30,520 nt of DNA from a virus. Positions within the stretch are counted from its first letter, which is position 1. Every line of letters begins with the position of its first letter. The translations under genes and the position numbers were made by a program. Under the pieces are notes generated by a model. The model was not told where the DNA came from. It searched no databases and saw nothing but the letters and a program-made list of their open reading frames with translations. Positions 2,563 to 29,772 of this stretch are shown piece after piece. The stretch spans positions 1 to 30,520 of the IMG/VR virus record IMGVR_UViG_3300033182_000064; one strand, 5' to 3'.

Positions 2563-2798
2563 AGGCTCCTCCACTGTGCTGTGTTCCAGTAGTCTAAGAT
2601 TTTCTTTATCAGCAAGTCGCGCTTATACATCAACTTTATATAGTCCGGCTTGCTGTAGTCGTAGATCCAGTCCTTCTCTGTACCGTGGGGACGTTTAGAC
2701 TTGGCAATCTTGATCGCTGCCTCACAAGTACGCATAAGTTCTGCACGCATAGTGAGCAGGGATGGGTCATCCATGAAAGCAGCAGGTCGTTTTCTCAT
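2559..2798 (-). CDS. Hypothetical 79-residue basic phage protein
   Basis: A small protein rich in Lys and Arg (MRKRPAAFMDDPSLL at the start, DYIKLMYKRDLLIKKIL near the end) with predicted helices and no cysteine pairs or membrane segment beyond one Cys. It overlaps the end of the 290-residue gene upstream and the start of the 50-residue gene downstream, both by ATGA. I do not recognise it. Confidence 0.75.
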   Translation of the reverse strand: MRKRPAAFMDDPSLLTMRAELMRTCEAAIKIAKSKRPHGTEKDWIYDYSKPDYIKLMYKRDLLIKKILDYWNTAQWRSL

Positions 2799-3667
2799 TG
2801 GGATTCCTTTGGTTGTATTACACCTAGCTTGCGGCGCAAGGATAGGCTTAGGTTCGACAAGACTTTATCAGCAGCCCTTAATACGAGTTCTTTAGATGGC
2901 TTCGTAGGTCGCCACGAGGATACTCTAACGGATCTGACAAAACCTTCCATAAGTTCTGCGGGGTAATCCTGTTTTTCTATCGCGTTTGCGAGCAGCGTTA
3001 CCCACGCATCGTCATTCCACTGTGGTTGCAGTAGCGCCGCACCCAGTGGGGCAGAAGTACGCTTGGCCCAATCATCATCAATATGTTTGTCGATGATGTT
3101 CAACTTGGCCCGCACCTTCAGGCCGGTCTTGAACTGCTTTAGATTCCTACGCCACTCAGTACGTTTCTCCGGTATCTCCTCGGCATCTTTCCAGCGGTCG
3201 TTGAAGCAGTGGCCTGTCGTCATGTCGAACTGCAATCCCTGCACGTACTCAGGGGCAATCTTCATACGCTCGTTGATCGCTTGCCAGCGTGATCGGAAGT
3301 CAGTCGGTGTTGCCATCGCAGCTTTCTGCACCTCAACCAGTGTCAGCGTGGACTCCATGCGGTACAGATTCGTGCGGATACGCTGCGGATAAAATGGAAT
3401 AAGTCTGTGTAATGCTTGCGTAAATGTGTTGGAGTACTTGAGGAACTCATCCTTAGGAAGTACAAACGTGAGTATGTTTTCAGGAGATACAGTGCATAGC
3501 GGCTGGCTGCCGTAGCCAATCGCGTGGATCACCATGTTGAAGTCATCGTCTTGAAAGAGCCGCGCCCACTTAGCAAGCGGCTTCCCCTTGTTGGGGTTAC
3601 GCGCAGTCTTGAACTCAGCCTGAAGCTGAGCGTAGTTCATATATCTTGAAGTACTGTATAGATACAT
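2795..3667 (-). CDS. Unrecognised 290-residue protein next to the MoxR/VWA cassette
   Basis: No known domain is recognised. The protein is soluble, with basic and acidic stretches spread throughout. It has a helical middle (about 95-190) and a C-terminal segment rich in Leu, Arg and Ser (VLSNLSLSLRRKLGV). I chose the ATG at 3667 because GAGG lies five bases upstream; a GTG at 3673 would add two residues but leaves no room for the ribosome binding site. It follows the 230-residue gene by seven bases and overlaps the 79-residue gene by ATGA. Its position in the same transcript as the ATPase and VWA genes suggests a related task, but that is inference. Confidence 0.85.
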   Translation of the reverse strand: MYLYSTSRYMNYAQLQAEFKTARNPNKGKPLAKWARLFQDDDFNMVIHAIGYGSQPLCTVSPENILTFVLPKDEFLKYSNTFTQALHRLIPFYPQRIRTNLYRMESTLTLVEVQKAAMATPTDFRSRWQAINERMKIAPEYVQGLQFDMTTGHCFNDRWKDAEEIPEKRTEWRRNLKQFKTGLKVRAKLNIIDKHIDDDWAKRTSAPLGAALLQPQWNDDAWVTLLANAIEKQDYPAELMEGFVRSVRVSSWRPTKPSKELVLRAADKVLSNLSLSLRRKLGVIQPKESQ

Positions 3668-3674
3668 AGCCACC

Positions 3675-4367
3675 TCACTTGGTTAGTTTGTGCAGAGCGA
3701 CAGCAGCGGTCATCTTGGTCAAGTCAATGCCAAGTTCTTCCTCAGCCTTAGCCTTACGCTGCGTAGTTTTTAGATGTCGCTCACGAATATCATCGTCCAA
3801 CAAATCCCACAGTGGTTGCCATGCCTTGATCGCAGGAGCCAGCGTTGTGTATGTGTCCATGATCTTGTCTAGACCGGCAAAGAACGCAGCCTTGCGTGCC
3901 TTAGCAGTGAAGATTTTGTGCTGGTAGTCCTTGAACTCAGGCTTGAGCCAGTCCCACATGGGATCTTCATAGTTAAGGTTCGTCCCAGCCCAAGACACAA
4001 AGCGCGGGTTAGCTATGCCAATAACCGCAGCACTAGGATCATTGGGGAATGGCATCGGTTTGCTGAACGCTAGGCGGGCATAGTTGCTAGTCGCCCAGAC
4101 TTGCATCTTGAACTCTCCTGTCTGATACCAGTCGTCAGGCGCACGGTCGAAGCCACCCAGTCTGATCTGCTCTTGTGTGGCAAACATATAGTCAGGAGCA
4201 GAGGCCATAACACGGCGATCACTTTCTCTAAACATCGTCTCATATATACGATCTGCCCAATGCGCAGGCACATCCAACTCAGCCTTCTCGATTATCGGAT
4301 CAAATAACTTGCTCGCATTGTTGCGGATCTTTTCCTTGAGTGCGTCACTAAAACGTACAGTAGCCAT
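3675..4367 (-). CDS. Unrecognised 230-residue protein downstream of the VWA-metallopeptidase
   Basis: A soluble protein with a clear ribosome binding site (AGGAG, seven bases before ATG) 13 bases after the VWA gene. The first 60 residues look helical. The middle is rich in Trp, Tyr, Pro and Asn (for example PRFVSWAGTNLNYEDPMWDWL), and the C-terminus is helical and charged. I see no catalytic motif and no family I can name. Because it lies directly behind the ATPase, helical and VWA genes, it could be a substrate or adaptor of that machine. This guess rests on position only. Confidence 0.85.
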   Translation of the reverse strand: MATVRFSDALKEKIRNNASKLFDPIIEKAELDVPAHWADRIYETMFRESDRRVMASAPDYMFATQEQIRLGGFDRAPDDWYQTGEFKMQVWATSNYARLAFSKPMPFPNDPSAAVIGIANPRFVSWAGTNLNYEDPMWDWLKPEFKDYQHKIFTAKARKAAFFAGLDKIMDTYTTLAPAIKAWQPLWDLLDDDIRERHLKTTQRKAKAEEELGIDLTKMTAAVALHKLTK

Positions 4368-4380
4368 AGTTAATCTCCTA

Positions 4381-5505
4381 TCAATGGTTCATTTCAACAA
4401 CATCACCGAACGGTGCTTTAGTCTGGTCAGTCGTTACCCACAGCACAGGGTAGTCAGGTACATCACCGAAGTCGCTGCAATACAGGTCGGTTAGAAACAC
4501 ACACGCGGATGGCGTGATTCCGTGTTCATCCATGTACTTGAACACTGGGCTGAAAGCCGTGCCGCCTCCGCCATGAGGCTTAATATCAAGAGAATCATCA
4601 CGGCCATAGGTTTCATAGTGGGACACCTCCGAATCAAAATAGACAACATGAATACGTGAAGGCTTGCTGTCCTCCTGTACTGTGCGAATCTCCGCAGCGA
4701 ACTGATCTACTATGTCTGGCCCGATAGATCCTGAGCAGTCAACAGCAAATGCAATCTCACCCAACGTCTCGCCCGATATGCTAGGCACATACATACCCTG
4801 CTGAGTAAAGCGGCGGTTCGGTCTAGCCCAAGTACGCTCATCAGTACGCGACTTCTCTACAAAGTTACGCAGTACATGTCGCCAATCAACCTTAGGCTGG
4901 AGAATCTCACCGACCATACGCTCCAGTCCAGCACTCAGTTTGCCCATCATCTTCGCAGTCTGAGCAGCCTGCGCTACCTTGACTCTCCACTCTGCTTGCT
5001 TCTGTGCTAACTCAGCCGGTGTCTCACCGCCATCCTGACAGTCATCCAGTGGTTGACCATCACCGCCAAATCCCCGCTGATCCTCAGGTACTTCAGGCAG
5101 GATGCTATAGATACCCTCAGTAGTCCCGCCGCCAGCTTGGTAGATTTCATCAGAATGCAGGCCACCGTTAGGCATCTTGCCGATACCCTCATCCACCAAC
5201 AACTTGTTGATTACATAGTCGCCGGCCATGTTCCAGCGATGTCGGTCTCGACCGTTGCGTCTATAGTTATGCTCAGACATTGGGTGCATACACTCGTGTG
5301 CTACTAGGAAGATCACCTCCTCATCTGTCTGTTTGTCAATATACTCAGGGTTGAATATCACACACTTGCCATCAGTCGCAGCCGTAGGAACTTGCTCCGA
5401 GATATGCACAGGCATACTCATAGCGATATGTCCGAAGAACGGATGCTCGAGGATTAGCGAAGTCTTAGCTTTAGATATTCGCTTAACGATATGGTCTATG
5501 CTCAT
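4381..5505 (-). CDS. HExxH metallopeptidase-like protein with C-terminal VWA domain (DUF2201 type)
   Basis: This 374-residue protein has two parts. The N-terminal half carries H70-E71-x-x-H74 (VAHECMH), a zinc-binding metallopeptidase signature. It is followed by WNMAGDYVIN (92-101), whose Asp is a likely third ligand. The C-terminal half (about 248-374) is a von Willebrand A fold with a full metal-ion-dependent adhesion site: D256-x-S258-x-S260, T316 in GGGGTAF, and D340 in FLTDLY. This order matches the putative metallopeptidase/VWA-like family DUF2201. Such proteins are usually encoded beside MoxR-type ATPases, as here. The start overlaps the stop of the preceding gene (TAATG). Whether it cuts protein or only binds metal cannot be told from sequence. 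Confidence 0.9.
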   Translation of the reverse strand: MSIDHIVKRISKAKTSLILEHPFFGHIAMSMPVHISEQVPTAATDGKCVIFNPEYIDKQTDEEVIFLVAHECMHPMSEHNYRRNGRDRHRWNMAGDYVINKLLVDEGIGKMPNGGLHSDEIYQAGGGTTEGIYSILPEVPEDQRGFGGDGQPLDDCQDGGETPAELAQKQAEWRVKVAQAAQTAKMMGKLSAGLERMVGEILQPKVDWRHVLRNFVEKSRTDERTWARPNRRFTQQGMYVPSISGETLGEIAFAVDCSGSIGPDIVDQFAAEIRTVQEDSKPSRIHVVYFDSEVSHYETYGRDDSLDIKPHGGGGTAFSPVFKYMDEHGITPSACVFLTDLYCSDFGDVPDYPVLWVTTDQTKAPFGDVVEMNH

Positions 5506-6356
5506 TAAATACCTCCCATAAATACAGCCATTTTGTCCATGATGTCCTTAGCCTCAGCCGCTTTATCACGGCGCAGGTCAGGGTTGTTACGCAGTGCATC
5601 AGGATGGTGGTTGACTAGCGAAACCTCCACTTGCATACGCAACGCCTCAAGGTTGGGGTCATCAGCGAAGTTAAGTCGCGGCAGTAACGCACACAACTCA
5701 CGTGTGTTCTCCAGCATGGAGTCGCGGAAGATTCCCTTAGGGTCAGCTAGTTTCTCAGCCATATGCTGCACGCGGTCATACAGTCGCTGCCACACATCCT
5801 TCATCGCAGTCTGCTGCGCCTCAGTTACACGCCGCTCAACATCGTCTTGGATACGTGCCAACTCATCGTCAGCGATGGACACTCGGAAGTCGTTACTTGG
5901 TACAGGGAACACCGCCATGTCCATGCGGAACTTATTAGCGATCTCTGATGCTGCTGGATAGTCAGCATCGTTATACATACTGCCAAGAAATCTCTGCGCG
6001 TCAGCCCTAAGCTGCGCATAGTTACTCACGAACTCATTGACAAGATACTCCCACTCCCCTTTCTCCTTGCGGAACTCCGACATGAAGTTCAGGTAGTTAG
6101 CACTAGGCAGCATCTGCGTACCCTCAATTCCCCACGGTAACGTGTTGTCGTAGTACTTCTGGCGGATAGCCGTAGCTTTCTTATGCACATGACTGAGGTA
6201 GTCATTCATCGGCAACAACGACTTGTTATACCGCCCTGCCGCCGTGGGTACACCGTTCTGGTCAGCGATCTGCTGAGTAGCCCGCTTGTCATACTTACGC
6301 GCTGTCCACTGGCTGATGGAAAGCTGTACTAGCAATGCACGATCTGAAAGTTTCAT
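5505..6356 (-). CDS. Helical partner protein between MoxR ATPase and VWA gene (DUF3150-like)
   Basis: This 283-residue, mostly helical protein sits between a MoxR-type ATPase and a VWA-metallopeptidase. In many plasmids and phages that slot is held by a DUF3150-type protein of about this length, and the pattern here (a helical charged body, with DDELARIQDDVERRVTEAQQ in the middle) agrees. I base the family link on context and general character, not on a motif, so it is tentative. A CGGAGA site precedes the ATG, and the stop TAA overlaps the next start. The likely role is an adaptor linking ATPase and VWA protein. Confidence 0.85.
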   Translation of the reverse strand: MKLSDRALLVQLSISQWTARKYDKRATQQIADQNGVPTAAGRYNKSLLPMNDYLSHVHKKATAIRQKYYDNTLPWGIEGTQMLPSANYLNFMSEFRKEKGEWEYLVNEFVSNYAQLRADAQRFLGSMYNDADYPAASEIANKFRMDMAVFPVPSNDFRVSIADDELARIQDDVERRVTEAQQTAMKDVWQRLYDRVQHMAEKLADPKGIFRDSMLENTRELCALLPRLNFADDPNLEALRMQVEVSLVNHHPDALRNNPDLRRDKAAEAKDIMDKMAVFMGGI

Positions 6357-6373
6357 ATGATTTCTCCGGTTGG

Positions 6374-7372
6374 TTAAAACAAAACATCTTGGTGGTCAAC
6401 AGCCCAACGGTTGAACGCATCCGTATTGGCTAACTCCGCGTTCTTACGTGTGGCAAATGACACGGTAAGCACACTGAACTCCGGCGGCATACGCCCTGTG
6501 TACTTAATAACACGTGAGAAGTTAGTCTCAGTTGCCCGCTCAGCTAACGCACCAGACAGTGCATAAAGCGTCGCAGGGTCAGTCGGCACGTCAGCCGTAT
6601 CAGGGTGAAGGATCACGTTGTCAGGGTTAGGCAGTTGGCGATACACCTCCATGAACCCCTTGAACTCAGCCGCAGCACCCTCACCAACAGCACCCTTGAA
6701 GCACTCATACTCAGCCTCGAGCGGCACTACCCTAAGCACTGCACTCACACCCTCATGCCATGAGCGAGGGCTAGGGTTACTGTCCTGCTGCGGGTCAAAG
6801 TTATGCAACATAGCTGGCTTAAACGACAGGTAAGCCCTAACCTCAGGCGCAGTACCGTTGTCCACCATCCACCGCATCGACTCGTGGTAGTCAGTGTCCA
6901 GCTCGATCACAGTCTCACGATTACGCAAGTGTGAAAGCACACGGTTAGCACCGGCTCGGTCTGACTGCCGGTTGCCCGTAGAGATCACTTGCCACCCATC
7001 AGCGATCTGCACACCGTGTAAGTTCCTAGCTTGACAGATGTTAGCCAGTACTTTCTGCAGGTCAGCGTTAGCTTGGTTGCGGTCATCGAAACACAGGATG
7101 CCACCCTTACCATCGTCATACTTACTGCCCTTAGCAGGGAACCAGTCAGGCAGCTTATACGCAAAGCTGTCTCCACTAGCCATCATGTCAGGCACACCGA
7201 AGTCCTCCACCAACATCGTCGGCATGTGCTTCTCGATGTAGTGAATGCCCAACTCTCTAGCAACTTGCTGCACGATGCTGGTCTTACCGCCACCTGGAGC
7301 GCCCTCTACGGCAACAGTCCTAAGCTGCGGATGCAGCGCTTTCAACGTATCTTTCAACAGACTAGCTTTCAT
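6374..7372 (-). CDS. MoxR-type AAA+ ATPase
   Basis: This 332-residue AAA+ protein shows Walker A GAPGGGKTS (24-32), Walker B ILCFDD (92-97) and sensor 1 N134 in STGNRQSD. An arginine-finger region follows at HLRNR (149-153). The segment SPRSWHEG near residue 200 fits the start of the helical lid. MoxR ATPases act as chaperone-like remodelling machines with VWA-domain partners, and such a partner is encoded two genes downstream. Walker B ends Asp-Asp where most AAA+ proteins have Asp-Glu, so hydrolysis may be slow or rely on Asp97. The gene starts three bases after the 60-residue gene, whose last codons supply GGAG. The family is clear; the cellular target is unknown. Confidence 0.92.
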   Translation of the reverse strand: MKASLLKDTLKALHPQLRTVAVEGAPGGGKTSIVQQVARELGIHYIEKHMPTMLVEDFGVPDMMASGDSFAYKLPDWFPAKGSKYDDGKGGILCFDDRNQANADLQKVLANICQARNLHGVQIADGWQVISTGNRQSDRAGANRVLSHLRNRETVIELDTDYHESMRWMVDNGTAPEVRAYLSFKPAMLHNFDPQQDSNPSPRSWHEGVSAVLRVVPLEAEYECFKGAVGEGAAAEFKGFMEVYRQLPNPDNVILHPDTADVPTDPATLYALSGALAERATETNFSRVIKYTGRMPPEFSVLTVSFATRKNAELANTDAFNRWAVDHQDVLF

Positions 7373-8303: not shown

Positions 8304-8332
8304 AAAAATAAAAGGGCAGCTAATGCTGCCCT
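8304..8332 (-). terminator. Rho-independent terminator after the 62-residue gene
   Basis: On the minus strand AGGGCAGC-ATTA-GCTGCCCT forms a perfect 8-bp stem with a four-base loop, followed at once by TTTTATTTTT. It begins eight bases after the stop codon of the gene at 8341-8529. Confidence 0.85.
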
Positions 8333-8552: not shown

Positions 8553-8583
8553 AATAAAAAAGGCGGCTACTAATGTAGCCGCC
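8553..8583 (-). terminator. Rho-independent terminator after the 123-residue gene
   Basis: On the minus strand GGCGGCTAC-ATTA-GTAGCCGCC makes a perfect 9-bp stem followed by TTTTTTATT. It uses the same ATTA loop as the terminator at 8304-8332 and lies 15 bases after the stop of the gene at 8598-8969. Confidence 0.9.
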
Positions 8584-17503: not shown

Positions 17504-17959
17504 ATGACTGCATATACTGACTCACTGGGCTTTAACAAAGGCTCTGCCGCTTACCCGGATCAGAACCGCCCTGTCTCTAAGATTGAAGTTGAACTCGACT
17601 TCGCTAAGATCGTTGCTGCTCGTTCGGCTGCTGGCGCTACGGCGCTTTCTGCTGCCGATACTCTCGCGGTTATTAACCTGCCTGCGTACTCTGTAGTTCT
17701 GGCCGCCGGTCTGAACGTAACTTCAGCGGAAACTACCAACACCACTGCGACTTTCGACTTTGGTTACACTGGCGGTACTCCGGCTGCAGCGAACGTTTAT
17801 TGCGATGACTTTGCTTCAAACGCTGTTGCAATGGACTCCGATAACCTTGCTAATCCGACCGTGATTAAGAGTGCCGACACTATCGACATTCTTCTGAACA
17901 CTGCAGTTCCGACTGACTGTGTGGTCAAGGCATGGGCTATCGTAGCTGACTGCAACTGA
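17504..17959 (+). CDS. Putative head decoration or minor capsid protein
   Basis: A 151-residue Ala/Thr-rich protein predicted to be mainly beta strand (DTLAVINLPAYSVVLAAGLN, TNTTATFDFGYTGG, DTIDILLNTAVPTDCVVKAW). It begins 11 bases after the major capsid gene behind a strong AAGGAG, and a UUCG hairpin follows. Small beta proteins in this position commonly stud the capsid surface. No catalytic motif is present. The role is inferred from position and composition. Confidence 0.8.
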   Translation: MTAYTDSLGFNKGSAAYPDQNRPVSKIEVELDFAKIVAARSAAGATALSAADTLAVINLPAYSVVLAAGLNVTSAETTNTTATFDFGYTGGTPAAANVYCDDFASNAVAMDSDNLANPTVIKSADTIDILLNTAVPTDCVVKAWAIVADCN

Positions 17960-17963
17960 TCGA

Positions 17964-17983
17964 ACGGGGGCTTCGGCCCCCGT
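17964..17983 (+). terminator. UUCG hairpin after the first decoration gene
   Basis: ACGGGGGC-TTCG-GCCCCCGT is a perfect 8-bp stem with a UUCG loop, followed by TTTATAAGGAGG. The short T-run makes it a partial terminator or a 3' stabiliser for capsid mRNA. Confidence 0.65.
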
Positions 17984-17999
17984 TTATAAGGAGGTTCTT

Positions 18000-18434
18000 A
18001 TGGGTGTTTACACTGGTATTGCGCTAGATAATGTAACTATTAACAGTGGTACTGCGGCTCTGCAGACTCTCTCTGTTTCTGGTGGCATTACTGCCGACAT
18101 CACTGGCAACATTACCCTTCCGGTTGCTGCAGTTGCTGCTGCTGGCTCCGACAACACTGACGCAGGTACTATCTCCGCTTATGGTGTAGTTCACGCGACT
18201 GGTGCTGACGGTACCAAAGGTGTCAAACTGCCTACGGCTGCCGCAGGTAAAGTTGTCATTATCAAAAACGCAGATGCGGCTAACGCCGTCCTGAAGGTTT
18301 ATCCGGGTACTTCGGACAAGATCAACTCAGGTACTGCAACTACTGGCTCGCTCGATATGGCTGCTAAGACTTCAGCCGTGCTGATTGCGATTGACGATAC
18401 GGATTGGTTCTCTGTACCGTTGTTGCCGTCGTAA
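18000..18434 (+). CDS. Second putative decoration or head fibre protein
   Basis: A 144-residue protein, Ala/Gly/Thr/Val-rich and beta-dominated. A region from about 55 to 130 (SAYGVVHATGADGTKGVKLP, then VVIIKNADAANAVLKVYPG, then TDKINSGTATTGSLDMAAKT) recalls the beta fold seen at the tips of phage virion fibres. AAGGAGG precedes the ATG. It lies between two nearly identical UUCG hairpins, so it is a self-contained expression unit. Function is inferred. Confidence 0.8.
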   Translation: MGVYTGIALDNVTINSGTAALQTLSVSGGITADITGNITLPVAAVAAAGSDNTDAGTISAYGVVHATGADGTKGVKLPTAAAGKVVIIKNADAANAVLKVYPGTSDKINSGTATTGSLDMAAKTSAVLIAIDDTDWFSVPLLPS

Positions 18435-18447
18435 TGATGTAACCACG

Positions 18448-18465
18448 GGGGGCTTCGGCCCCCCA
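18448..18465 (+). terminator. UUCG hairpin after the second decoration gene
   Basis: GGGGGGC-TTCG-GCCCCCC with ACTTATAACGGAG after it closely copies the hairpin and ribosome binding site block at 17964-17994. With almost no T-run it is more likely an attenuator or mRNA end protector than a full terminator. Confidence 0.6.
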
Positions 18466-18485
18466 CTTATAACGGAGATTGAGTG

Positions 18486-20270
18486 ATGCCCGGTAAACGT
18501 ATTAGTGACCTTGATGTTATTGCTGGTGCAGGCACGTCTAACGACGACCAGCTTGTTATTTTTGACACTGATACGAGCACAACGAAGCGCATCATTCGGT
18601 CTCAGCTTGCCGCTGGGATTGTAGGGGATCTTCCGTACACCCCGTCCGGCGGCATTTCTGCAACGACTGTACCTACAGCGATTGCGGAGCTTGACTCTGA
18701 AGCAGCTAAATCCGCTACCCTTGCTGCCGCTGGCGGCGCTGCGTTAATTGGCAACACCCCTGCGGGCACGATTGCCGCGACGACGGTTCAGGGCGCGATT
18801 GATGAGATCGTGAGTGACCTTGCTGCGAACAGCGGATCGTCTCTCGTTGGGTACACTCAGGGCGGGGCAAGCTCGGTAGATCGCACTGTTCAAGCCAAGC
18901 TACGTGAAACTGTAAGTGTTAAAGATTTTGGTGCAGTAGGCGATGGTGTCACTGACGATACTGCGGCTATTCAGGCGGCTATTGATACAGGCAAAGATGT
19001 CTATGTTCCAGAAGGAAACTTTTTGGTAACAGATACGCTTGATATTTCAACGCCTTATCAATCTTTATTTGGCTCTGGAGAAGGTTCTCAAATCACTTTT
19101 ACATTTGCATCAAGCAAAGCAGGTTTAGCCATTGTTCCAACTGGTGTGACTTCTACAGAAAGCGTATCAATACGCAATTTGTATTTGCGTGGTACAGCAA
19201 ATGTCAGCAAGTTGATTAGCATTGGTGGCCCTTTGTGTGTCATTTCTGAAAACAGATTAGTTAATGCTACTTCAGCAGGAAGTGTTATCTATTTTGAGGA
19301 TGAAGATTCTGGAAATGGCATTTGGTGTTTTGCCGGACGCATCATTAACAACCGAATTTATGGTTCTTTAACGGCTAATGCAACTGGTATTCGCACAGGA
19401 TTGTATTGCCATGCCTCAGTTATTGCATTTAACACTGTAGAAAACTGTGGAACATTACTTTACATTAATGGCGCATTAACAAAACTAACGGTTTATGGAA
19501 ACATTCTTCAGCGTTGTTTAGATTCTGAATATGCAGTTCGCATTTACAGAACTGGATCGTCTGGTCAAGAAATATATGCTGCTAGTTTTACCGATAATTA
19601 TTTTGAAGAAGTGCAGAAAGTCTTTAAACTTGAGGACGCAGCCTTTACCAATATCAACATATCTAATAACTATGCTTACAGAAATACCGCAACTAAAACT
19701 GGCAGTTATTTTTATGAGGGTGGAACAGGTACTTCAGCAGCCTCTAAAGAATTTATCGTAAAAAATAATCATATTGAAGATTATGATTATGTGTTTAATT
19801 TAACAAACGAATATTCTGCTTTACAGCTTGATGCTAAAGACAATCATTTAAATAGCGTTAATGGATATTCTACTGGCACATACGCTAGTCGTGCGTACAA
19901 AGTGCGTGTAGTTAGTCCTTATTTTACTAGAGCTATTGCGTCAGGTTCTTTTGTTTCGGAATCTAGGCTTCGAATGGAAGCTACTTCAATTACTTACAGG
20001 ATTCCTCTTGAAGTTCAAACGCAAGAGTTTATTGAGAAAATCACGTTCTATTATATCTCATCAGGCAGCGGCACTAGCACAGCCACCATCTATTGCGATG
20101 GCACTAGCATTGGAACTGTATCAACTACTGGTGGAACAGAGGGGACTTACACGATTACCCTAGATCATTCCACTTATCCGCAATCTCGTGGTGGCCAATA
20201 TTGGGCAGAATTTTCAATAACCGATTCAATTGCAGGATATATTTATCCTGTGAATATTTATACGAGGTAA
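18486..20270 (+). CDS. Beta-helix spike with pectate-lyase-like domain (receptor binding or depolymerase)
   Basis: A 594-residue protein. Residues 1-120 contain two copies of an ATTVxxAIxEL repeat (59-70 and 98-108), a common proximal fibre motif. Residues 139-163 are the linker LRETVSVKDFGAVGDG and VTDDTAAI, which opens pectate-lyase-type beta-helix domains. The remainder fits a parallel beta helix plus a beta-sandwich-like end (STATIYCDGTSIGTVSTTGG). Such spikes bind and often degrade surface polysaccharide; catalytic residues cannot be identified here. From about 18910 the DNA is much more AT-rich. I use the ATG at 18486; a GTG one codon earlier is possible. It lies among head genes, ahead of the connectors. 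Confidence 0.88.
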   Translation: MPGKRISDLDVIAGAGTSNDDQLVIFDTDTSTTKRIIRSQLAAGIVGDLPYTPSGGISATTVPTAIAELDSEAAKSATLAAAGGAALIGNTPAGTIAATTVQGAIDEIVSDLAANSGSSLVGYTQGGASSVDRTVQAKLRETVSVKDFGAVGDGVTDDTAAIQAAIDTGKDVYVPEGNFLVTDTLDISTPYQSLFGSGEGSQITFTFASSKAGLAIVPTGVTSTESVSIRNLYLRGTANVSKLISIGGPLCVISENRLVNATSAGSVIYFEDEDSGNGIWCFAGRIINNRIYGSLTANATGIRTGLYCHASVIAFNTVENCGTLLYINGALTKLTVYGNILQRCLDSEYAVRIYRTGSSGQEIYAASFTDNYFEEVQKVFKLEDAAFTNINISNNYAYRNTATKTGSYFYEGGTGTSAASKEFIVKNNHIEDYDYVFNLTNEYSALQLDAKDNHLNSVNGYSTGTYASRAYKVRVVSPYFTRAIASGSFVSESRLRMEATSITYRIPLEVQTQEFIEKITFYYISSGSGTSTATIYCDGTSIGTVSTTGGTEGTYTITLDHSTYPQSRGGQYWAEFSITDSIAGYIYPVNIYTR

Positions 20271-20275
20271 TAAAA

Positions 20276-20536
20276 ATGGCACTTTCTAAAGAAATTTCTA
20301 TTGATGTATTTGGTAAAAATGTCGCATTTCAAAATGCTTACATCAAGGTTGCTCACATTTCTGGAAGCAAGGATAGCGTAGTTGCGACAGTCAATATGAT
20401 GAATGCTAAAGATGGGCAAATCATCAAACAAAATGATTATGAATTTACTCCATCTATGAATGGCAATAACTTTATTGCTCAAGCCTATGAGCATCTTAAA
20501 ACTCTACCTGAATTTGCTGACGCTACGGACTGCTAA
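20276..20536 (+). CDS. 86-residue protein coupled to the first spike
   Basis: The protein begins MALSKEISIDVFGKNVAFQNAY and looks like two short beta hairpins followed by a helix (NNFIAQAYEHLKTLPEF). GAGG lies eight bases before the ATG, in the end of the spike gene. Its DNA is AT-rich like the distal spike, so it probably moved together with it. A chaperone or adaptor for the spike is a reasonable guess. Longer upstream starts overlap the spike and lack a ribosome binding site. Confidence 0.75.
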   Translation: MALSKEISIDVFGKNVAFQNAYIKVAHISGSKDSVVATVNMMNAKDGQIIKQNDYEFTPSMNGNNFIAQAYEHLKTLPEFADATDC

Positions 20537-20538
20537 TC

Positions 20539-21579
20539 ATGGCTACTAATCTTACAGGCTCAACGATTGCCTCTACGTATGACCAACTACTGCATGTAGA
20601 CGACGGCCCAGCCGCGACTGAGAAAACGGTCTATAGCGGCACTGGCGTTGCTACGGCTGTAAAGATTGGTACCGGCTCTGCCTCGGTTGACAACATTCAG
20701 ATCGACGGCAACACGGTTGCTTCGACCGACACAAACGGCAACATCGTCCTTTCACCTAACGGTACGGGTACGGTCAATATCTCGAAGGCTGCTATTACCG
20801 GCGGCTCGATCTCAGGTATCACTGACCTTGCTATTGCAGACGGTGGCACGGGTGCGTCTGACGCAACTACGGCCCGGTCAAACCTCGGCCTCGGGTCGAT
20901 GGCTACGCAAAACTCGAACAGTGTCTCCATCACGGGCGGGTCGATTACCGGCGTTGTTTTCACTGGCAGCTTCTCCGGCATCACGTCAATCACGTCCGAC
21001 GGATTCTACACAAGCGATGCTGCGGCGGGGCTATCCCTGACCGGGAACGATCTTCTGGCCGACGGCACAGATGCGAACATCGACATTGACATCACCCCCA
21101 AAGGCACCGGGGAAGTTAACATCCCGAAAGTTGACATTAACGGCGGCACGATTGACGGCACCACGATTGGTGGGGCTACTCCGGCCGGGGTCAAAGGTAC
21201 GACTGTCGAGGCAACTACCTCCATCGGATACCCGGTAGGTACGGGCGGCACAGTCACGCAGCTCACAAGCCGCACGACTGGGGTAACGCTGAATAAGATC
21301 ACTGGGTCGATCACCCTTTTTGCCGCTGCCATCGCAGGCCGCGAAGCTGATGAGTTCACGCTTACGAACAGCACAATCGGCGCAAACGACGTAGTTATGG
21401 TTAGCATCAAGTCCGGTGCTGCTGCGGCTACTCGCAAGTATTACCAGACACACGTGGTGGCTACCGCCGCCGGTTCCTGCGTTATCTCTGTAGGCAACCT
21501 GGACAATTCTTCTATCCCAACGGCAGGTACTGAAAGCCCTGTCCTTCAATTCGTTGTGATTAAAGGAGCAGTTGCGTAA
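20539..21579 (+). CDS. Fibre-like virion protein
   Basis: A 346-residue Gly/Thr/Ser/Ile-rich protein. It contains IADGGTGASDATTARSNLGL (about 98-117), a motif of phage tail fibres also present in the gene at 26563, and many ITGGSI-type repeats that suit a triple-stranded fibre shaft. The C-terminal 105 residues (from about TSRTTGVTLNKITGSITLF) look like a compact beta domain seen at the end of other virion fibres. It starts two bases after the preceding stop, so translation may be coupled. Composition returns to GC-rich here. Whether it sits on head or tail is unclear. Confidence 0.85.
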   Translation: MATNLTGSTIASTYDQLLHVDDGPAATEKTVYSGTGVATAVKIGTGSASVDNIQIDGNTVASTDTNGNIVLSPNGTGTVNISKAAITGGSISGITDLAIADGGTGASDATTARSNLGLGSMATQNSNSVSITGGSITGVVFTGSFSGITSITSDGFYTSDAAAGLSLTGNDLLADGTDANIDIDITPKGTGEVNIPKVDINGGTIDGTTIGGATPAGVKGTTVEATTSIGYPVGTGGTVTQLTSRTTGVTLNKITGSITLFAAAIAGREADEFTLTNSTIGANDVVMVSIKSGAAAATRKYYQTHVVATAAGSCVISVGNLDNSSIPTAGTESPVLQFVVIKGAVA

Positions 21580-21827
21580 TGGCTAAGACAATCGACAAAT
21601 CCAAGATGGCCTGTAATAGCCCGCGCCGCACCCCCGGCGCAAGCAAGAAGTTTGTGGTTAAAGCATGCCAAGGGGGTAAAGAGAAGATTATTCGCTTCGG
21701 TGACCCGAACATGACCATTAAGAAGGATCAACCCGCCCGCCGCAAATCTTTCCGCGCTCGCCATAAGTGTGACACAAACCCCCCTAGCAAAATGACTGCC
21801 CGACATTGGAGTTGCAAAAAATGGTGA
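21579..21827 (+). CDS. Small basic Cys/Arg-rich phage protein
   Basis: An 82-residue very basic protein with the ending RARHKCDTNPPSKMTARHWS then CKKW. This RHxC...ARxWSCxxW pattern is found in a widespread family of small virion-associated phage proteins (a DUF6321-like family, from memory). The two late cysteines, with nearby His, could bind zinc. The ATG overlaps the preceding stop. The exact role is unknown; its place among head-to-tail genes suggests a structural or packaging accessory protein. Confidence 0.85.
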   Translation: MAKTIDKSKMACNSPRRTPGASKKFVVKACQGGKEKIIRFGDPNMTIKKDQPARRKSFRARHKCDTNPPSKMTARHWSCKKW

Positions 21828-21837
21828 GGAAAAAGTA

Positions 21838-22014
21838 ATGGCCGAGAAATGGATTCAAAAGGCGATCAAGAAGCCGGGGGCATTGCGTAAAGAACTCGGC
21901 GTAAAGAAAGGCGAGAAGATTCCCGCTAAGAAACTAGCCGAAGCGGCTAAGAAACCCGGCAAGACTGGCCAACGAGCGCGTCTTGCCAAAACCCTAAGGA
22001 AGCTGAAGAAATGA
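21838..22014 (+). CDS. 58-residue Lys/Ala-rich phage protein
   Basis: A short, strongly basic protein: MAEKWIQKAIKKPGALRKEL, then GVKKGEKIPAKKLAEAAKK, then a KxGxxARLAKTLRKLKK end. This pattern is common in phages between structural genes and is helical with a likely DNA-binding surface. GAGGA precedes the ATG. Its TGA overlaps the next ATG (ATGA). I recognise the type but no established function. Confidence 0.88.
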   Translation: MAEKWIQKAIKKPGALRKELGVKKGEKIPAKKLAEAAKKPGKTGQRARLAKTLRKLKK

Positions 22015-24024: not shown

Positions 24025-26553
24025 ATGCCTATTAAACTAGCAAACAACGCTTCCGGTACTCTGGCTACAGCGATCAATGCGGCAGACACCGGCCTTGTCC
24101 TAACGACGGGCGACGGTGCTGAGTTCCCTGCGCTTAGCGCGGGCGAATATTTTTATGCGACGCTCACTAGCTCTCAAGGCACGATGGAGATTGTTAAAGT
24201 CACCGCCCGTAGCGGCGATTCCCTCACTGTCGTGCGTGCCCAAGAAGGCACCGTAGCTAACAGCTTTGCCGTAGGTACTTCGTTTGAACTGCGCGTGACT
24301 GCGGCGTCAATCATTGACACGGTGTACGGGATTACGAATTATCAAGGTGGTAGTGCAGCTAACCCAACGGCACGACTGGATGGCTCAGCATTGCAGGCAG
24401 GCGACTTCTATTTCAACACCGTAGCTGATGAAGTTCGGTTCTATAACGGCACAGCTTGGCAGTCTCTGACGACTGGTTCAATCGAAGTCCAAAACTTCTT
24501 GGGCAATGGGTCAACGACGAACTTCACGATGAGTACCGCACCTACGGGCGAGGACAACACACAGGTCTACATCGACGGTGTATACCAGCAAAAGGATACA
24601 TACAGTGTATCAGGGACAACCCTGATCTTTTCAGGTGCCCCGCCCTTGAATTCGACGATTGAAGTTGTGACGCTCGAAACGATTGCTATTGGGCAAACAT
24701 CTTCCGACTTGGTTAGTTACCAGCCTGCAGGAGCCTCTGCCGCCCCAAGAACAGTGCGTGACAAGTTACGCGAAACCGTTTCTGTCAAAGACTTTGGTGC
24801 TGTTGGTGATGGTGTTACCGATGATACGGCTGCTATCTTGGCTGCATTTGCAGCAATAGCATCAAATAATGGTGGTGTTCTTGAGTTCCCACAAGCAACT
24901 TATTTGATAAGTCATGGCTTCCGCGTTCCAAGCAATACAGTAGTTAATCTTAATGGTTCAACATTAAAAGCGACTACAACTTATGCTCAAGGAACAATTC
25001 CAACAGAAGGTGATAGTTCATTTTTTGCATTAGGTCGCCCACAAAGCGAAAGCCCTCTTGTTTCAGATATTGGAAACATTGTTATTAATGGTGGCGGTGC
25101 TGTACTAGATGGTCGTCGTGATGAACAAACTGGAACTATCGGTGGTTATTCTGGCATTAAGATGGAAACTACTGATACGCCAGTACAAGCAGATTTCCTC
25201 AAGTTAAAAAATATCCTGATTCAAGACTTAACTATTGATCGTATTGGTTATGATGGTATCTACATTGCGGGAGCGCAAAATGTAGTTGTTGAGAATGTCA
25301 TTGTTAATGCAGCTTTGCGTATTGGCGTCGTAGGTGTTGCAGGTGATAATGTGACATTTAGAAATGTTACATCTCAATATACAGTAGGTGACAACCCATC
25401 ATTGGCTGCAGGTCAACAAGGGCCAAGTAATAGTGGTGATGGTTTCTGGAATGAGCCTAATAATTCATGGCAAGACATGACTAATTGGGCGTATGAAAAC
25501 TGTAAAGCTCTATACAACTTCCAATCAGGCTTTAAAGTATGGAACGCGGGTGCTGATGCCAAATACCATATGCGTCTTGATAACTGTTATTCATACTCTA
25601 ATGTATATGATTCTGTTACTAGCACACTGCTTTCTTCTCCAGGTCATGCAGGATTTATTATTACAACAAATGCCACTTCTGCCGCAGAAGCAAGTGTAGC
25701 GTTTAATAATTGTATTGCTGAATCAGAAAATGGTTCCGGTTTTTCAATCAATCCTAATGGCGGCGGCTCTTTACAACGGTTTATTTATAACAACTGTGTA
25801 TCTTACAAGTGTAATCAAAATAATTCTGACAGTATTAACAGAGCGCCGTTTAGGGTTTCAGACGCAGCATACTCAGCAACTCCAACTATCGTAAGCAATG
25901 ACTCTGTAGTTATTGCTCCATCTGCCAATACGCTTGGTTATGGAATGTATTTCGGCAGCATGAAAAATGTCTACCTAAATAATCCAAAGTTTATTGGCAC
26001 ATTTACTGAAGAACTTGTTGTTAGTAGCACTTATGTACCTAATGATGATGAACGAGATACTGCGTTCTTCCAGACAGGTGCTACAAAAGCAAATGTAGCT
26101 GATGAAGTTTTCAAGTTTTCAATGCCTACTCGTCCTGCTTTGTTCGATCAAACATCTGAGCCTACGATTGCAGATCATTTGTTTAGAAATGAGATTGCTA
26201 TTTGGCAAGATGACAATAATCAATTTACAGGTGTATATCGCCGCAATGACAGCACTACGCCTAAATATATTGATTTCCAAGCAAAGAAAAGATTGCGTGG
26301 AGTTGCTAATTTAAGTTCTTCTGCGTCAATAGCAGCTCAAGATAAAGAAACAGGAACCATTGCAGTAACGGGTGCTGCTTTGGGTGACATAGTTACTATT
26401 GCGGCTACTGCTAATTTAGATTCTGATTTAATTGTGACTGCACGAGTTAGCGCTACTGATACAGTAAGTTATTACATACACAATCCATCTTCAAGTTCCG
26501 TTACGCGAGCTGCTACTTACTTGGCAGTAAATGTAGTTAGTAATGATTTTTAA
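24025..26553 (+). CDS. Large tailspike with attachment domain and pectate-lyase-like beta helix
   Basis: An 842-residue protein. Residues 1-100 are a virion-attachment domain shared with the preceding gene. Residues 118-150 (GSALQAGDFYFNTVADEVRF) and about 155-220 (GDGSTTNFT-like, with VYIDGVYQQKDTYSVSGTTL) are small beta domains common in phage fibres. At 249-270 the linker LRETVSVKDFGAVGDG opens a pectate-lyase-type beta helix that runs to about 640, with Asn/Gly-rich coils (NNCIAESENGSGFSINPNGG). The end is probably a trimerising domain. It likely recognises and may cut capsule or O-antigen. DNA turns AT-rich near 24770, so the tip is of different origin from the base. Confidence 0.9.
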   Translation: MPIKLANNASGTLATAINAADTGLVLTTGDGAEFPALSAGEYFYATLTSSQGTMEIVKVTARSGDSLTVVRAQEGTVANSFAVGTSFELRVTAASIIDTVYGITNYQGGSAANPTARLDGSALQAGDFYFNTVADEVRFYNGTAWQSLTTGSIEVQNFLGNGSTTNFTMSTAPTGEDNTQVYIDGVYQQKDTYSVSGTTLIFSGAPPLNSTIEVVTLETIAIGQTSSDLVSYQPAGASAAPRTVRDKLRETVSVKDFGAVGDGVTDDTAAILAAFAAIASNNGGVLEFPQATYLISHGFRVPSNTVVNLNGSTLKATTTYAQGTIPTEGDSSFFALGRPQSESPLVSDIGNIVINGGGAVLDGRRDEQTGTIGGYSGIKMETTDTPVQADFLKLKNILIQDLTIDRIGYDGIYIAGAQNVVVENVIVNAALRIGVVGVAGDNVTFRNVTSQYTVGDNPSLAAGQQGPSNSGDGFWNEPNNSWQDMTNWAYENCKALYNFQSGFKVWNAGADAKYHMRLDNCYSYSNVYDSVTSTLLSSPGHAGFIITTNATSAAEASVAFNNCIAESENGSGFSINPNGGGSLQRFIYNNCVSYKCNQNNSDSINRAPFRVSDAAYSATPTIVSNDSVVIAPSANTLGYGMYFGSMKNVYLNNPKFIGTFTEELVVSSTYVPNDDERDTAFFQTGATKANVADEVFKFSMPTRPALFDQTSEPTIADHLFRNEIAIWQDDNNQFTGVYRRNDSTTPKYIDFQAKKRLRGVANLSSSASIAAQDKETGTIAVTGAALGDIVTIAATANLDSDLIVTARVSATDTVSYYIHNPSSSSVTRAATYLAVNVVSNDF

Positions 26554-27930: not shown

Positions 27931-29772
27931 ATGTCATTAACAAAAGTTTCTTATTCAATGGTAAATAAATCATCTATTAGCGTAGTTGATTTTGGAGCCG
28001 ACCCAACTGGCACTAATGATTCAACTGTTGCAATTCAAGCAGCATTTGATTTTATGACAGCTAATTCAAATTCAGTTCAAGATGATCTTGGTCAATATCT
28101 TGGCAATGCACCAAAAGTTTATTTTCCAGAAGGTGTTTATTTAATTAGCGATGAGCTTTCATGGGCTGCATCTTATTGCAGAATAGATGGCAATCAAGCA
28201 ATCTTAAAACCTACTGCAAGTTTCTCTGGCAATGCTGCTATTTATGTTCCTACTTCAGCATGGAGATCAGCAATAACTGGATTGCAGTTTGAAAATTTTG
28301 CTGTCGGAATTAATGCAGGTACTCCAAATACAGGATCAACAATTCCGCAAATTAGAGATTGTTCATTCTTTAATTGTGATATTGGCATTTATCTTGATGA
28401 CAGATCAGCTATTGCTGTTATCCAGAGATGTATTTTTAGAAAAAATCGATGCGACATTCATTCAGAAAGCATTGATTGGACAGTAATCAAAGACTGTTAT
28501 CAATTAGCAGGTACATTAGCGAATGATGGTGATGCTCACATTGTTGCAAACAATTCATCAAAAATAATTCTTGAGAACTGGTTTGGAAACCCACAAGCTC
28601 AAACTATTTCTGAGCCAGCGTGGGTAAAAATAAGTGGCAAAGGATCAGCATTATATACTTATGGGCATTGCAGATTTGGTGGAGAAGTTGGCGGATATAC
28701 AGTCGTTAATGCAAATGCGGCTGCATCATTAAGCACAACAGATACGCCTAGTATTATCTCAATTCAAGATGGAATGACATATTCTGGCCCTTATGCGGGT
28801 GATCGTTCTATTGTTAGATTATTTGATTTACCTAATGCAATTTTGATAAAAAACAATTACGGCATGGTAAATAGTCCGTATGTGACTTGGTCAAGTACAG
28901 TTAGCTCTGGAACGCAAGCAACTCTTGTTGCTCAAGTAACTGATTCTAGATTGCGAACTAATTTATTTAGATTTGCATTCAGGGATAACATACATTTATC
29001 TCCGTCAACAACTAATCCACCTATTCCATCAAATATTATTTTTCCTGAATATCCTGAAAATTCAAAGCTAAGGCTTGAAGGATCAAGTGGAAGCCATGCT
29101 TATACTGAATTCTTTATTGAGGAAACAGCCATTTCTGCTGACACGACTTTAGGAGAAACTCGATATTACTCTGGAGATACATCAGTTGGCCCGGGAATTG
29201 TTGCTTATCAAAAAGGCATACAAGCAACAACTGCTTGTGAAGGAAAAATTATTTGGGGAACTGGTAGACCTAGTGGATCAAGCGGCACTGAAACAAGAGA
29301 TCGTTTAATACTTGACCCGTTGGGCAACTTGCTTGCATCTGAAGATAATTTAAGAACTCTTGGCGGCGCATCTAATAGATGGTCTGAGGTATTTGCAGGT
29401 AATGGAACAATCAATACTTCTGACGCTAATGAGAAGCAAGATGTTCGTGATTTGACAACTGCTGAATCTAATGTTGCCGCTACATTAAAAACAAAGTTAA
29501 AAGCATTTAAGTTTATTGATGCTGTTGAATCTAAAGGTGATGAAGCACGGATTCATTTTGGTGTAATTGCTCAAGATGTTAAATCTGCATTTGAAGCAGA
29601 GGGTTTGGATGCTACTAAGTATGGATTATTTTGTTCAAATACTTGGATGGAAAAGGATGGCGAAGTAGTAATGCCTGATGAAGAAAATCAATATCCAGAA
29701 GGCTCTATTGAAAAAACTCGTCTTGGTATTCGATATGAGCAATTATTAGCATTCATTATTAGTGCGCTTTGA
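27931..29772 (+). CDS. Beta-helix spike with C-terminal S74 self-cleaving chaperone
   Basis: A 613-residue protein. Residues 17-60 (SVVDFGADPTGTNDSTVAIQ) open a pectate-lyase-type beta helix. At the C-terminus, about 490-613, is a peptidase S74 intramolecular chaperone: S497 and K502 in SDANEKQDV form the catalytic dyad, followed by HFGVIAQDV and the C-terminal RLGIRYEQLLAFI. S74 domains help trimers fold and then cut themselves off just before the serine, leaving about 496 residues. No N-terminal attachment domain is present, so it must dock onto another fibre, perhaps the gene before it. The whole gene is AT-rich. Confidence 0.92.
   Translation: MSLTKVSYSMVNKSSISVVDFGADPTGTNDSTVAIQAAFDFMTANSNSVQDDLGQYLGNAPKVYFPEGVYLISDELSWAASYCRIDGNQAILKPTASFSGNAAIYVPTSAWRSAITGLQFENFAVGINAGTPNTGSTIPQIRDCSFFNCDIGIYLDDRSAIAVIQRCIFRKNRCDIHSESIDWTVIKDCYQLAGTLANDGDAHIVANNSSKIILENWFGNPQAQTISEPAWVKISGKGSALYTYGHCRFGGEVGGYTVVNANAAASLSTTDTPSIISIQDGMTYSGPYAGDRSIVRLFDLPNAILIKNNYGMVNSPYVTWSSTVSSGTQATLVAQVTDSRLRTNLFRFAFRDNIHLSPSTTNPPIPSNIIFPEYPENSKLRLEGSSGSHAYTEFFIEETAISADTTLGETRYYSGDTSVGPGIVAYQKGIQATTACEGKIIWGTGRPSGSSGTETRDRLILDPLGNLLASEDNLRTLGGASNRWSEVFAGNGTINTSDANEKQDVRDLTTAESNVAATLKTKLKAFKFIDAVESKGDEARIHFGVIAQDVKSAFEAEGLDATKYGLFCSNTWMEKDGEVVMPDEENQYPEGSIEKTRLGIRYEQLLAFIISAL

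Follow-up and report, generated by a model that had tools for sequence, protein, structure and literature searches.

Pairs of an AAA+ ATPase and a protein bearing a von Willebrand factor type A (VWA) domain have been described in both cells and phages. In the CbbQ-CbbO system, the AAA+ protein serves as motor, and the VWA protein uses its metal ion-dependent adhesion site (MIDAS) to bind rubisco at an acidic residue; the authors expect the same mode in similar systems and liken it to midasin (PMC4660213). In N4-like phages, the counterparts of N4 gp24 (ATPase) and gp25 (vWFA protein) are encoded by core genes, and gp24/gp25 are middle transcripts (PMC4193335). Iyer et al. (2021) described a MoxR-metallopeptidase-vWA chaperone pair in the group 2.2 jumbo phages and, in the part of that paper cited here, proposed a role in virion assembly (PMC7824862). 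We analyzed a cassette of five genes in a stretch of viral DNA of 30,520 nt (IMG/VR record IMGVR_UViG_3300033182_000064), hereafter the window. Three genes (the triad) encode an AAA+ ATPase, a helical protein of 283 amino acids (aa) and a DUF2201 metallopeptidase-VWA protein, and the remaining two encode proteins termed orphan A and orphan B.

The preliminary description of the window had presented a phage-borne MoxR-VWA set. The set is real, but that account was incomplete, since the core pair of ATPase and metallopeptidase-VWA protein is already known in phages (PMC4193335; PMC7824862, in the part cited). The cassette shares with N4 (Schitoviridae) a homologous metallopeptidase-VWA protein (A4 profile, E about 1e-75) adjoining an ATPase, but N4 has no helical DUF3150-like gene between gp24 and gp25, and orphan B was not detected there. 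It likewise shares the two-protein architecture of the jumbo-phage pair, an N-terminal metallopeptidase being fused to vWA, whereas the helical third subunit and two linked partners do not appear in the cited part of the published description (PMC7824862). CbbQ-CbbO resembles the cassette in its MoxR-group AAA+ motor and in a VWA adaptor with a complete MIDAS, but CbbO resembles no known domain in the region preceding its VWA domain, an HExxH domain has not been reported for it, and the substrate is rubisco (PMC4660213). As far as could be found, the recurrent third subunit, the layout common to chromosomal triads and the two strictly linked partners are new; none of the open-licence papers covered mentions 'DUF3150', and the main text of the CRISPRi-ART paper gives no functional data on N4 gp24/gp25.

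We propose, with about even confidence, that the three core genes encode a single ATP-driven remodelling machine of the replication phase, to which the orphans would be lineage-specific partners. The gene content, the intact sites, the fixed linkage and the cellular counterparts were observed directly and are presented below. The five genes lie on the minus strand from 7372 down to 2795 and are spaced by 17, -1, 13 and about 1-7 bases, confirming the positions and the near-gapless arrangement given in the preliminary description. The operon-like triad described there is confirmed as well; its members are an ATPase of the MoxR type (Pfam AAA_5), the DUF3150-like helical protein and the DUF2201 metallopeptidase-VWA protein. 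The helical protein and the two orphans of the window gave no significant Pfam hit on their own.

Conserved sites of the ATPase and the metallopeptidase-VWA protein

The Pfam families DUF2201_N (E=4e-46) and DUF2201 (E=7e-25) cover, in this order, residues 9-372 of the 374-aa protein, with scores (PF13203 and PF09967) of 158.2 and 87.9 bits against cut-offs of 23.2 and 26.4 bits, respectively. The HExxH motif (H70, E71, H74) and the complete MIDAS of the form DxSxS...T...D (D256, S258, S260, T316, D340), which had been read from the window alone, were placed correctly, and each is invariant in 115 of 115 clade sequences. Both were also unvarying in a 30-sequence alignment that included Vibrio, Thermus, Bacillus G, Rhizobium and cyanobacterial phages. 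H79, N92 and D96 are likewise invariant across the 115 clade sequences, and one of them, with H79 and D96 as the candidates, may be the third metal ligand of a zincin-type site. No HNH Pfam hit was found in the DUF2201 protein of the window. phrog_1314 and RefSeq records, including that of N4 gp25 (L229:2165-3307), name this family 'HNH endonuclease', a label that looks wrong because Pfam finds no HNH domain, and that has spread; the core pair of the N4-like phages thereby carries a misleading database name.

The ATPase matches Pfam AAA_5 (E=3e-5; 24.4 bits against a cut-off of 22), and MoxR proper (Pfam AAA_3) is absent from its matches listed to E=1. Among the profiles suggested for checking in the preliminary description, that of DUF2201 and, for the MoxR group in its broad sense, that of AAA_5 exceed their cut-offs, but the helical protein of the window has no DUF3150 match. 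The best relatives of the ATPase profile in the PDB are midasin (E 1e-27), and RavA was not found among the 60 best PDB matches. The locus resembles RavA-ViaA in combining a MoxR ATPase with a VWA partner, but differs from it in the relatives of its motor. To our knowledge, ViaA is without HExxH. K30 (Walker A), D96 (Walker B), N134, R152 and R203 are invariant or nearly so in the clade and in remote phages, the roles of R152 (arginine finger) and R203 (sensor-2) being given by position only. As all residues of the HExxH motif, the MIDAS and Walker A, together with the sensor and arginine positions, are (nearly) invariant, we regard both metal sites and the use of ATP as being under selection. 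In the Vibrio phages JA-1 and pVco-5 (L233 and L234 records), the ATPase match falls into two stretches about 0.9 kb apart, as if an intron, an intein or a homing-endonuclease gene intervened.

A recurrent helical subunit and its bacterial counterparts

The helical gene has 233 related stretches in the virus collection, and the VWA gene has 118 there plus 743 phage records; relatives in such numbers indicate that the cassette is not a chance arrangement. A helical relative of 30% identity occurs in Planktothrix/Synechococcus phages, again flanked by ATPase and VWA genes. When bacterial genomes were scanned with the alignment of the VWA protein, over 400 relatives emerged, and 80 loci were retained for study. 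The helical subunit was found in 19 of these 80 loci, and in 18 after one contig (L253; CAKZRW010000107.1) had been set aside. That contig was binned as an actinobacterium, but its triad proteins are 65-68% identical to those of the phage lineage and small genes are shared as well; it is probably a phage contig in an actinobacterial bin.

The 18 loci come from Acidobacteria, Desulfobacteraceae, Alphaproteobacteria, Chitinophaga and others. In them, the three genes of the triad are closely packed and mostly follow the order seen in the window, Chitinophaga and Paraflavitalea having ATPase-VWA-helical instead. Their helical subunits match at hidden Markov model E-values of about 1e-56 to 1e-93. 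All three subunits of these chromosomal operons are thus homologous to those of the cassette, which differs from them in carrying the orphans, and the layout common to a cellular machine that the preliminary description had supposed is borne out by bacterial genomes. No other neighbouring gene is conserved among the 18 loci except through lineage synteny, and no resemblance to the phage lineage was seen elsewhere in them apart from a few helicase- or polymerase-like matches, implying that the triad is a self-contained module. A third subunit recurring in bacterial chromosomes offers a defined three-part complex to reconstitute. In one stretch from Acidobacteria (L289:1225-8191), two DUF2201-VWA genes and two ATPases lie within 7 kb, apparently as neighbouring copies of the cellular system.

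We regard the 283-aa protein as a recurrent third subunit that, judging from profile matches, is distantly DUF3150-like. The window protein is unmatched by DUF3150 (PF11348); 19 of 32 clade members match to E<=1 (best 0.003), as do 10 of 22 members of a joint phage-cell alignment (best 1.1e-5). On nine phages with a VWA gene, this profile gave no match to E=1, missing even the clearly homologous helical protein of a cyanophage, and its silence thus means little. The profile of the helical subunit itself (A3) matched the cyanophage alone among the same phages and found no counterpart in the examined parts of N4, Erwinia S6, Bacillus G, Thermus phiFa and Rhizobium phages; the majority of the 80 chromosomal loci are also without a recognised helical subunit. 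Thus, the helical subunit belongs to one branch of these systems and is either absent or unrecognisable in another. By sequence, no convincing solved relative was found for the helical protein or for either orphan.

Linkage and evolution of the two orphans

Single-sequence searches with the window's own orphans found no relatives, which must be a failure of sensitivity because many relatives were evident in the neighbourhoods of the loci. Among 156 loci (including the window's own, L156, and counting some contigs twice), a relative of orphan A was present in 143 and one of orphan B in 139, at 24-48% identity, the identity of the triad in these loci being mostly 50-82%. Of the 133 loci that extend 2.2 kb or more past the VWA gene, 131 contained both orphans. 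Conversely, all three triad genes were present in each of the 77 orphan-A loci whose upstream sequence spans at least 4.5 kb, orphan B was present in 117 of 119 orphan-A loci with enough downstream sequence, and the triad accompanied orphan B in 15 of 15 loci (the latter from a scan of the virus collection made with a divergent member). The orphans thus travel with the triad within a single phage lineage, and the refuting condition set in the preliminary description, a lack of such co-occurrence in other phages, did not hold. For that reason, we take the co-occurrence to indicate constraint and not independent repeated assembly.

Four alternatives to our proposal are weighed here and below; they are not mutually exclusive, and the likelihoods we attach to them are separate estimates that do not sum to one. 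The orphans may be unrelated to the triad and kept adjacent to it by a stable replication arm, whatever the triad does. Such neutral synteny, which we deem possible but tending to the unlikely side, would agree with the confinement to a single lineage, with the finding that neither orphan adjoins the triad in the bacterial loci, and with the lack of orphan B in all other phage groups examined. On the other hand, the genes beyond orphan B turn over completely, the three that follow it (79, 61 and 152 aa) being without relatives throughout the loci, and insertions as long as ~1.2 kb occur between the VWA gene and orphan A, so that the replication arm is not simply frozen. Furthermore, the evolutionary distances of the orphans correlate with those of the triad more strongly than the DNA polymerase predicts. 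With DNA-polymerase distances removed (53 contigs), partial correlations persisted among the five genes: r was 0.79 for ATPase-helical, 0.65 for ATPase-VWA, 0.67 for orphan A-orphan B, 0.59 for VWA-orphan B and 0.54 for VWA-orphan A.

The two orphans change at roughly three times the rate of the triad (mean distances of 1.14 and 1.41 versus 0.35-0.45), orphan B being the fastest of the five genes. This rate would suit parts that face a changing partner, as expected if the triad unfolded or cleaved a host protein in host takeover or anti-defence and the orphans were aiming subunits that track the host. A mutation of nmad5 allows a Dhillonvirus to escape sensing by the Tmn defence (PMC11846954), which also fits. 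Nevertheless, we judge this explanation rather unlikely: apart from a weak P-loop match (IetA, E 0.002), PADLOC gave nothing for the five proteins, the fact that the pair is core in N4-like phages hints at a general requirement (PMC4193335), and, in contrast to typical accessory anti-defence genes, the orphans hardly ever go missing. Returning to the remodelling machine that we propose, the fast-evolving but rarely lost orphans would be the best candidates for phage-specific substrates or adaptors, with which the distance correlations agree; two strictly linked proteins of this kind are concrete candidates to pursue. The two genes downstream of the VWA gene in the Planktothrix phage Pag-Yong1, one of them annotated as AcrVA2, were considered as orphan homologues and rejected (hhalign probability ~1% or less).

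The statement of the preliminary description that both orphans are unrecognised held in part. Both have many relatives and the gene at 3675-4367 is Nmad5-like (see below), but orphan B is indeed without a known fold match: its predicted structure is confident (predicted local distance difference test, pLDDT, 92), and no PDB fold matched it with E<0.2. One strong viral match, A0A516LIB2, was found for the model. This accession is close to A0A516LIC0, the best match of orphan A, and the two numbers suggest that both proteins come from one genome.

Orphan A and the Nmad5 family

The Pfam Nmad5 profile matches 33 of 63 relatives of orphan A to E<=0.1 (best 1.7e-5), and 31 match phrog_1965. The Nmad5 cut-off of 27 bits was not reached, the window protein having no match and three clade genomes scoring 14-16 bits. 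The predicted structure of orphan A (pLDDT 90) found BFVD matches annotated as Nmad5 at E 0.0025 and 0.023, besides others that are mostly unnamed. When the orphan A profile was run against 797 open reading frames (ORFs), YuA gp15 ranked first (E 2e-8) and Nmad5 of Bordetella phage CN1 next (E 1e-7), and hhalign gave 95% (149 columns) and 94%, respectively. Thus, orphan A is best regarded as a remote relative of Nmad5 and, lying below the curated cut-off, not as a member by the Pfam rule.

These nearest relatives bear on a third alternative, in which orphan A is a component of DNA-base modification and the triad its maturation or metal-insertion machine, after the logic of CobS/CobT-like chelatases. 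In YuA and CN1, Nmad5 adjoins deoxyuridylate hydroxymethyltransferase genes, and in Vibrio phage ICP2 (L235:5001-10176) Nmad5 (gp36) is five genes away from homologues of CobT (gp41) and CobS (gp42), by annotation another VWA and AAA+ pair. We nevertheless find this explanation very doubtful. Five near-complete genomes of the lineage have no thymidylate-synthase-family (dUMP hydroxymethyltransferase) gene, whereas YuA and CN1 do score, leaving a hypermodification role unsupported here. The replication-arm proteins that were scanned yielded no other recognised modification enzyme, and the biochemical role of Nmad5 is not established. Orphan A has profile and fold similarity to the Nmad5 family, of which YuA gp15 is an example, but stays below the curated cut-off and lacks a thymidylate-synthase-family gene in its lineage, and Nmad5-like proteins outside base-hypermodification clusters call the family name into question.

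Nmad5 also sits amid replication genes in several Schitoviridae. Among the nine phages with a VWA gene, the Nmad5 Pfam profile matched only in Vibrio phage 1.097.O, where the gene lies between the ATPase and VWA genes; as the VWA gene is core in N4-like phages, we did not count this as an independent co-occurrence. A weak Nmad5-like match at the fold level (E 0.14) was seen for gp062 of Erwinia phage S6 (L232:16775-17305), encoded directly before the DNA polymerase gene, and N4 gp38 and EVC27_056 of RHph_I1_6 occupy the same position.

Proposed mode of action

In the machine that we propose, the ATPase would be the motor and the DUF2201 protein both substrate adaptor and protease. The MIDAS metal of the latter would complete its coordination through an acidic residue of the target, the HExxH domain could cut the captured target, and the helical protein would most likely be the linker that couples adaptor to motor. 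As the phage protein adds a protease-like domain, capture could lead to unfolding, cutting or both. The machine would be produced with the replication genes, being encoded on the strand of the DNA polymerase and opposite to the structural genes, and may act on a protein complex of the replication or middle phase, as suggested by the position of the cassette with the DNA polymerase and by the middle transcripts of N4 gp24/gp25. Orphan A and orphan B would be substrates, or adaptors aiming the machine. Consistent with this proposal, the helical and VWA genes overlap by a TAATG, and no strong terminator was found within the cassette.

The fourth alternative is a virion-assembly machine, in which the pair would be a chaperone and processing protease for structural proteins. 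Such a role was put forward for the same domain fusion in jumbo phages by Iyer et al. (PMC7824862, in the part cited); the p618/p892 of Acidianus two-tailed virus provide a MoxR-VWA precedent (cited in PMC7911831 and in that part of PMC7824862), and roseophage RPP1 encodes four virion proteins near its gp24/gp25 homologues (PMC4193335). However, the cassette shares its strand with the DNA polymerase and not with the terminase-capsid-tail arm, N4 gp24/gp25 are middle, not late, transcripts (PMC4193335), and the orphans have no clear homology to structural proteins. Virion assembly is thus, in our estimation, unlikely.

Several observations weigh against a replication-phase machine with the orphans as its partners. 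All five-gene cassettes belong to a single phage lineage, TerL identity being 77-88% for 11 of 12 divergent contigs, so that the linkage could be plain inheritance, and the partial correlations do not prove contact because neighbouring genes have a common recombination history. Other phage groups carry the ATPase-VWA pair without detectable orphan B or helical subunit, and the pair can thus work without them. In all 90 clade members that have a residue at position 97, the Walker B aspartate is followed by a second one (Asp97), and the catalytic Walker B glutamate occupies the equivalent position in the five remote relatives aligned; ATP hydrolysis may therefore be slow. A stricter version, in which the five proteins would make up a dedicated machine whose core captures, remodels or proteolytically activates orphans A and B, seems quite improbable to us. 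If true, it would be a previously undescribed replication-phase maturation system built on a module that otherwise stands alone in bacterial chromosomes.

Genome setting and other features

The features of the cassette are listed in Table 1. The spacing of -1 between the helical and VWA genes is the most frequent value (44 of 155 loci). The strand of the cassette also carries, beyond it, a family-A DNA polymerase, and the opposite strand carries a terminase-portal-capsid-tail arm, the portal, capsid and tail genes being named by size, order and similarity and not by profile. Pseudomonas phage Rollin, at 45% in TerL, and Rhizobium phage RHph_TM3_14A, at 40% in the polymerase and 38% in TerL, are the closest named phages, and both are remote.

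Table 1. Positions of the cassette features in the window.
Feature	Position	Strand	Assignment
AAA+ ATPase, 332 aa	6374..7372	-	Pfam AAA_5, phrog_1297; Walker A GAPGGGKT, Walker B FDD; sensor-1 N134, arginine R152, sensor-2 R203
Helical third subunit, 283 aa	5505..6356	-	Distantly DUF3150-like; kept in cellular triads
TAATG stop/start overlap of helical and VWA genes	5503..5507	-	Sequence
DUF2201 protein, 374 aa	4381..5505	-	N-terminal HExxH putative metallopeptidase domain and C-terminal VWA with full MIDAS
Orphan A, 230 aa	3675..4367	-	Remote Nmad5 (PF18757)-like, fast evolving
Orphan B	2795..3673	-	292 aa (GTG start 3673) or 290 aa (ATG start 3667)

Two strong terminator-like hairpins lie upstream of the cassette on the minus strand (window 8313-8332 and 8562-8583). 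In the structural arm, about 4.5 kb at 17504-22010, between a capsid-like gene and a small pre-tail gene, hold an ORF for a 595-aa tailspike-like protein and others, and the matching interval is <1 kb in the relative G001. The window encodes three large spike-like proteins (18483-20270, 24025-26553 and 27931-29772), of which the first two have the segment VSVKDFGAVGDGVTDDTAAI in common, and the C-terminal end of the third resembles, by eye, an S74 self-cleaving chaperone. In two relatives of ~54 kb, one arm terminates in an ORF of 2,676-2,708 aa (G001 37752-45782 and G005 30572-38698).

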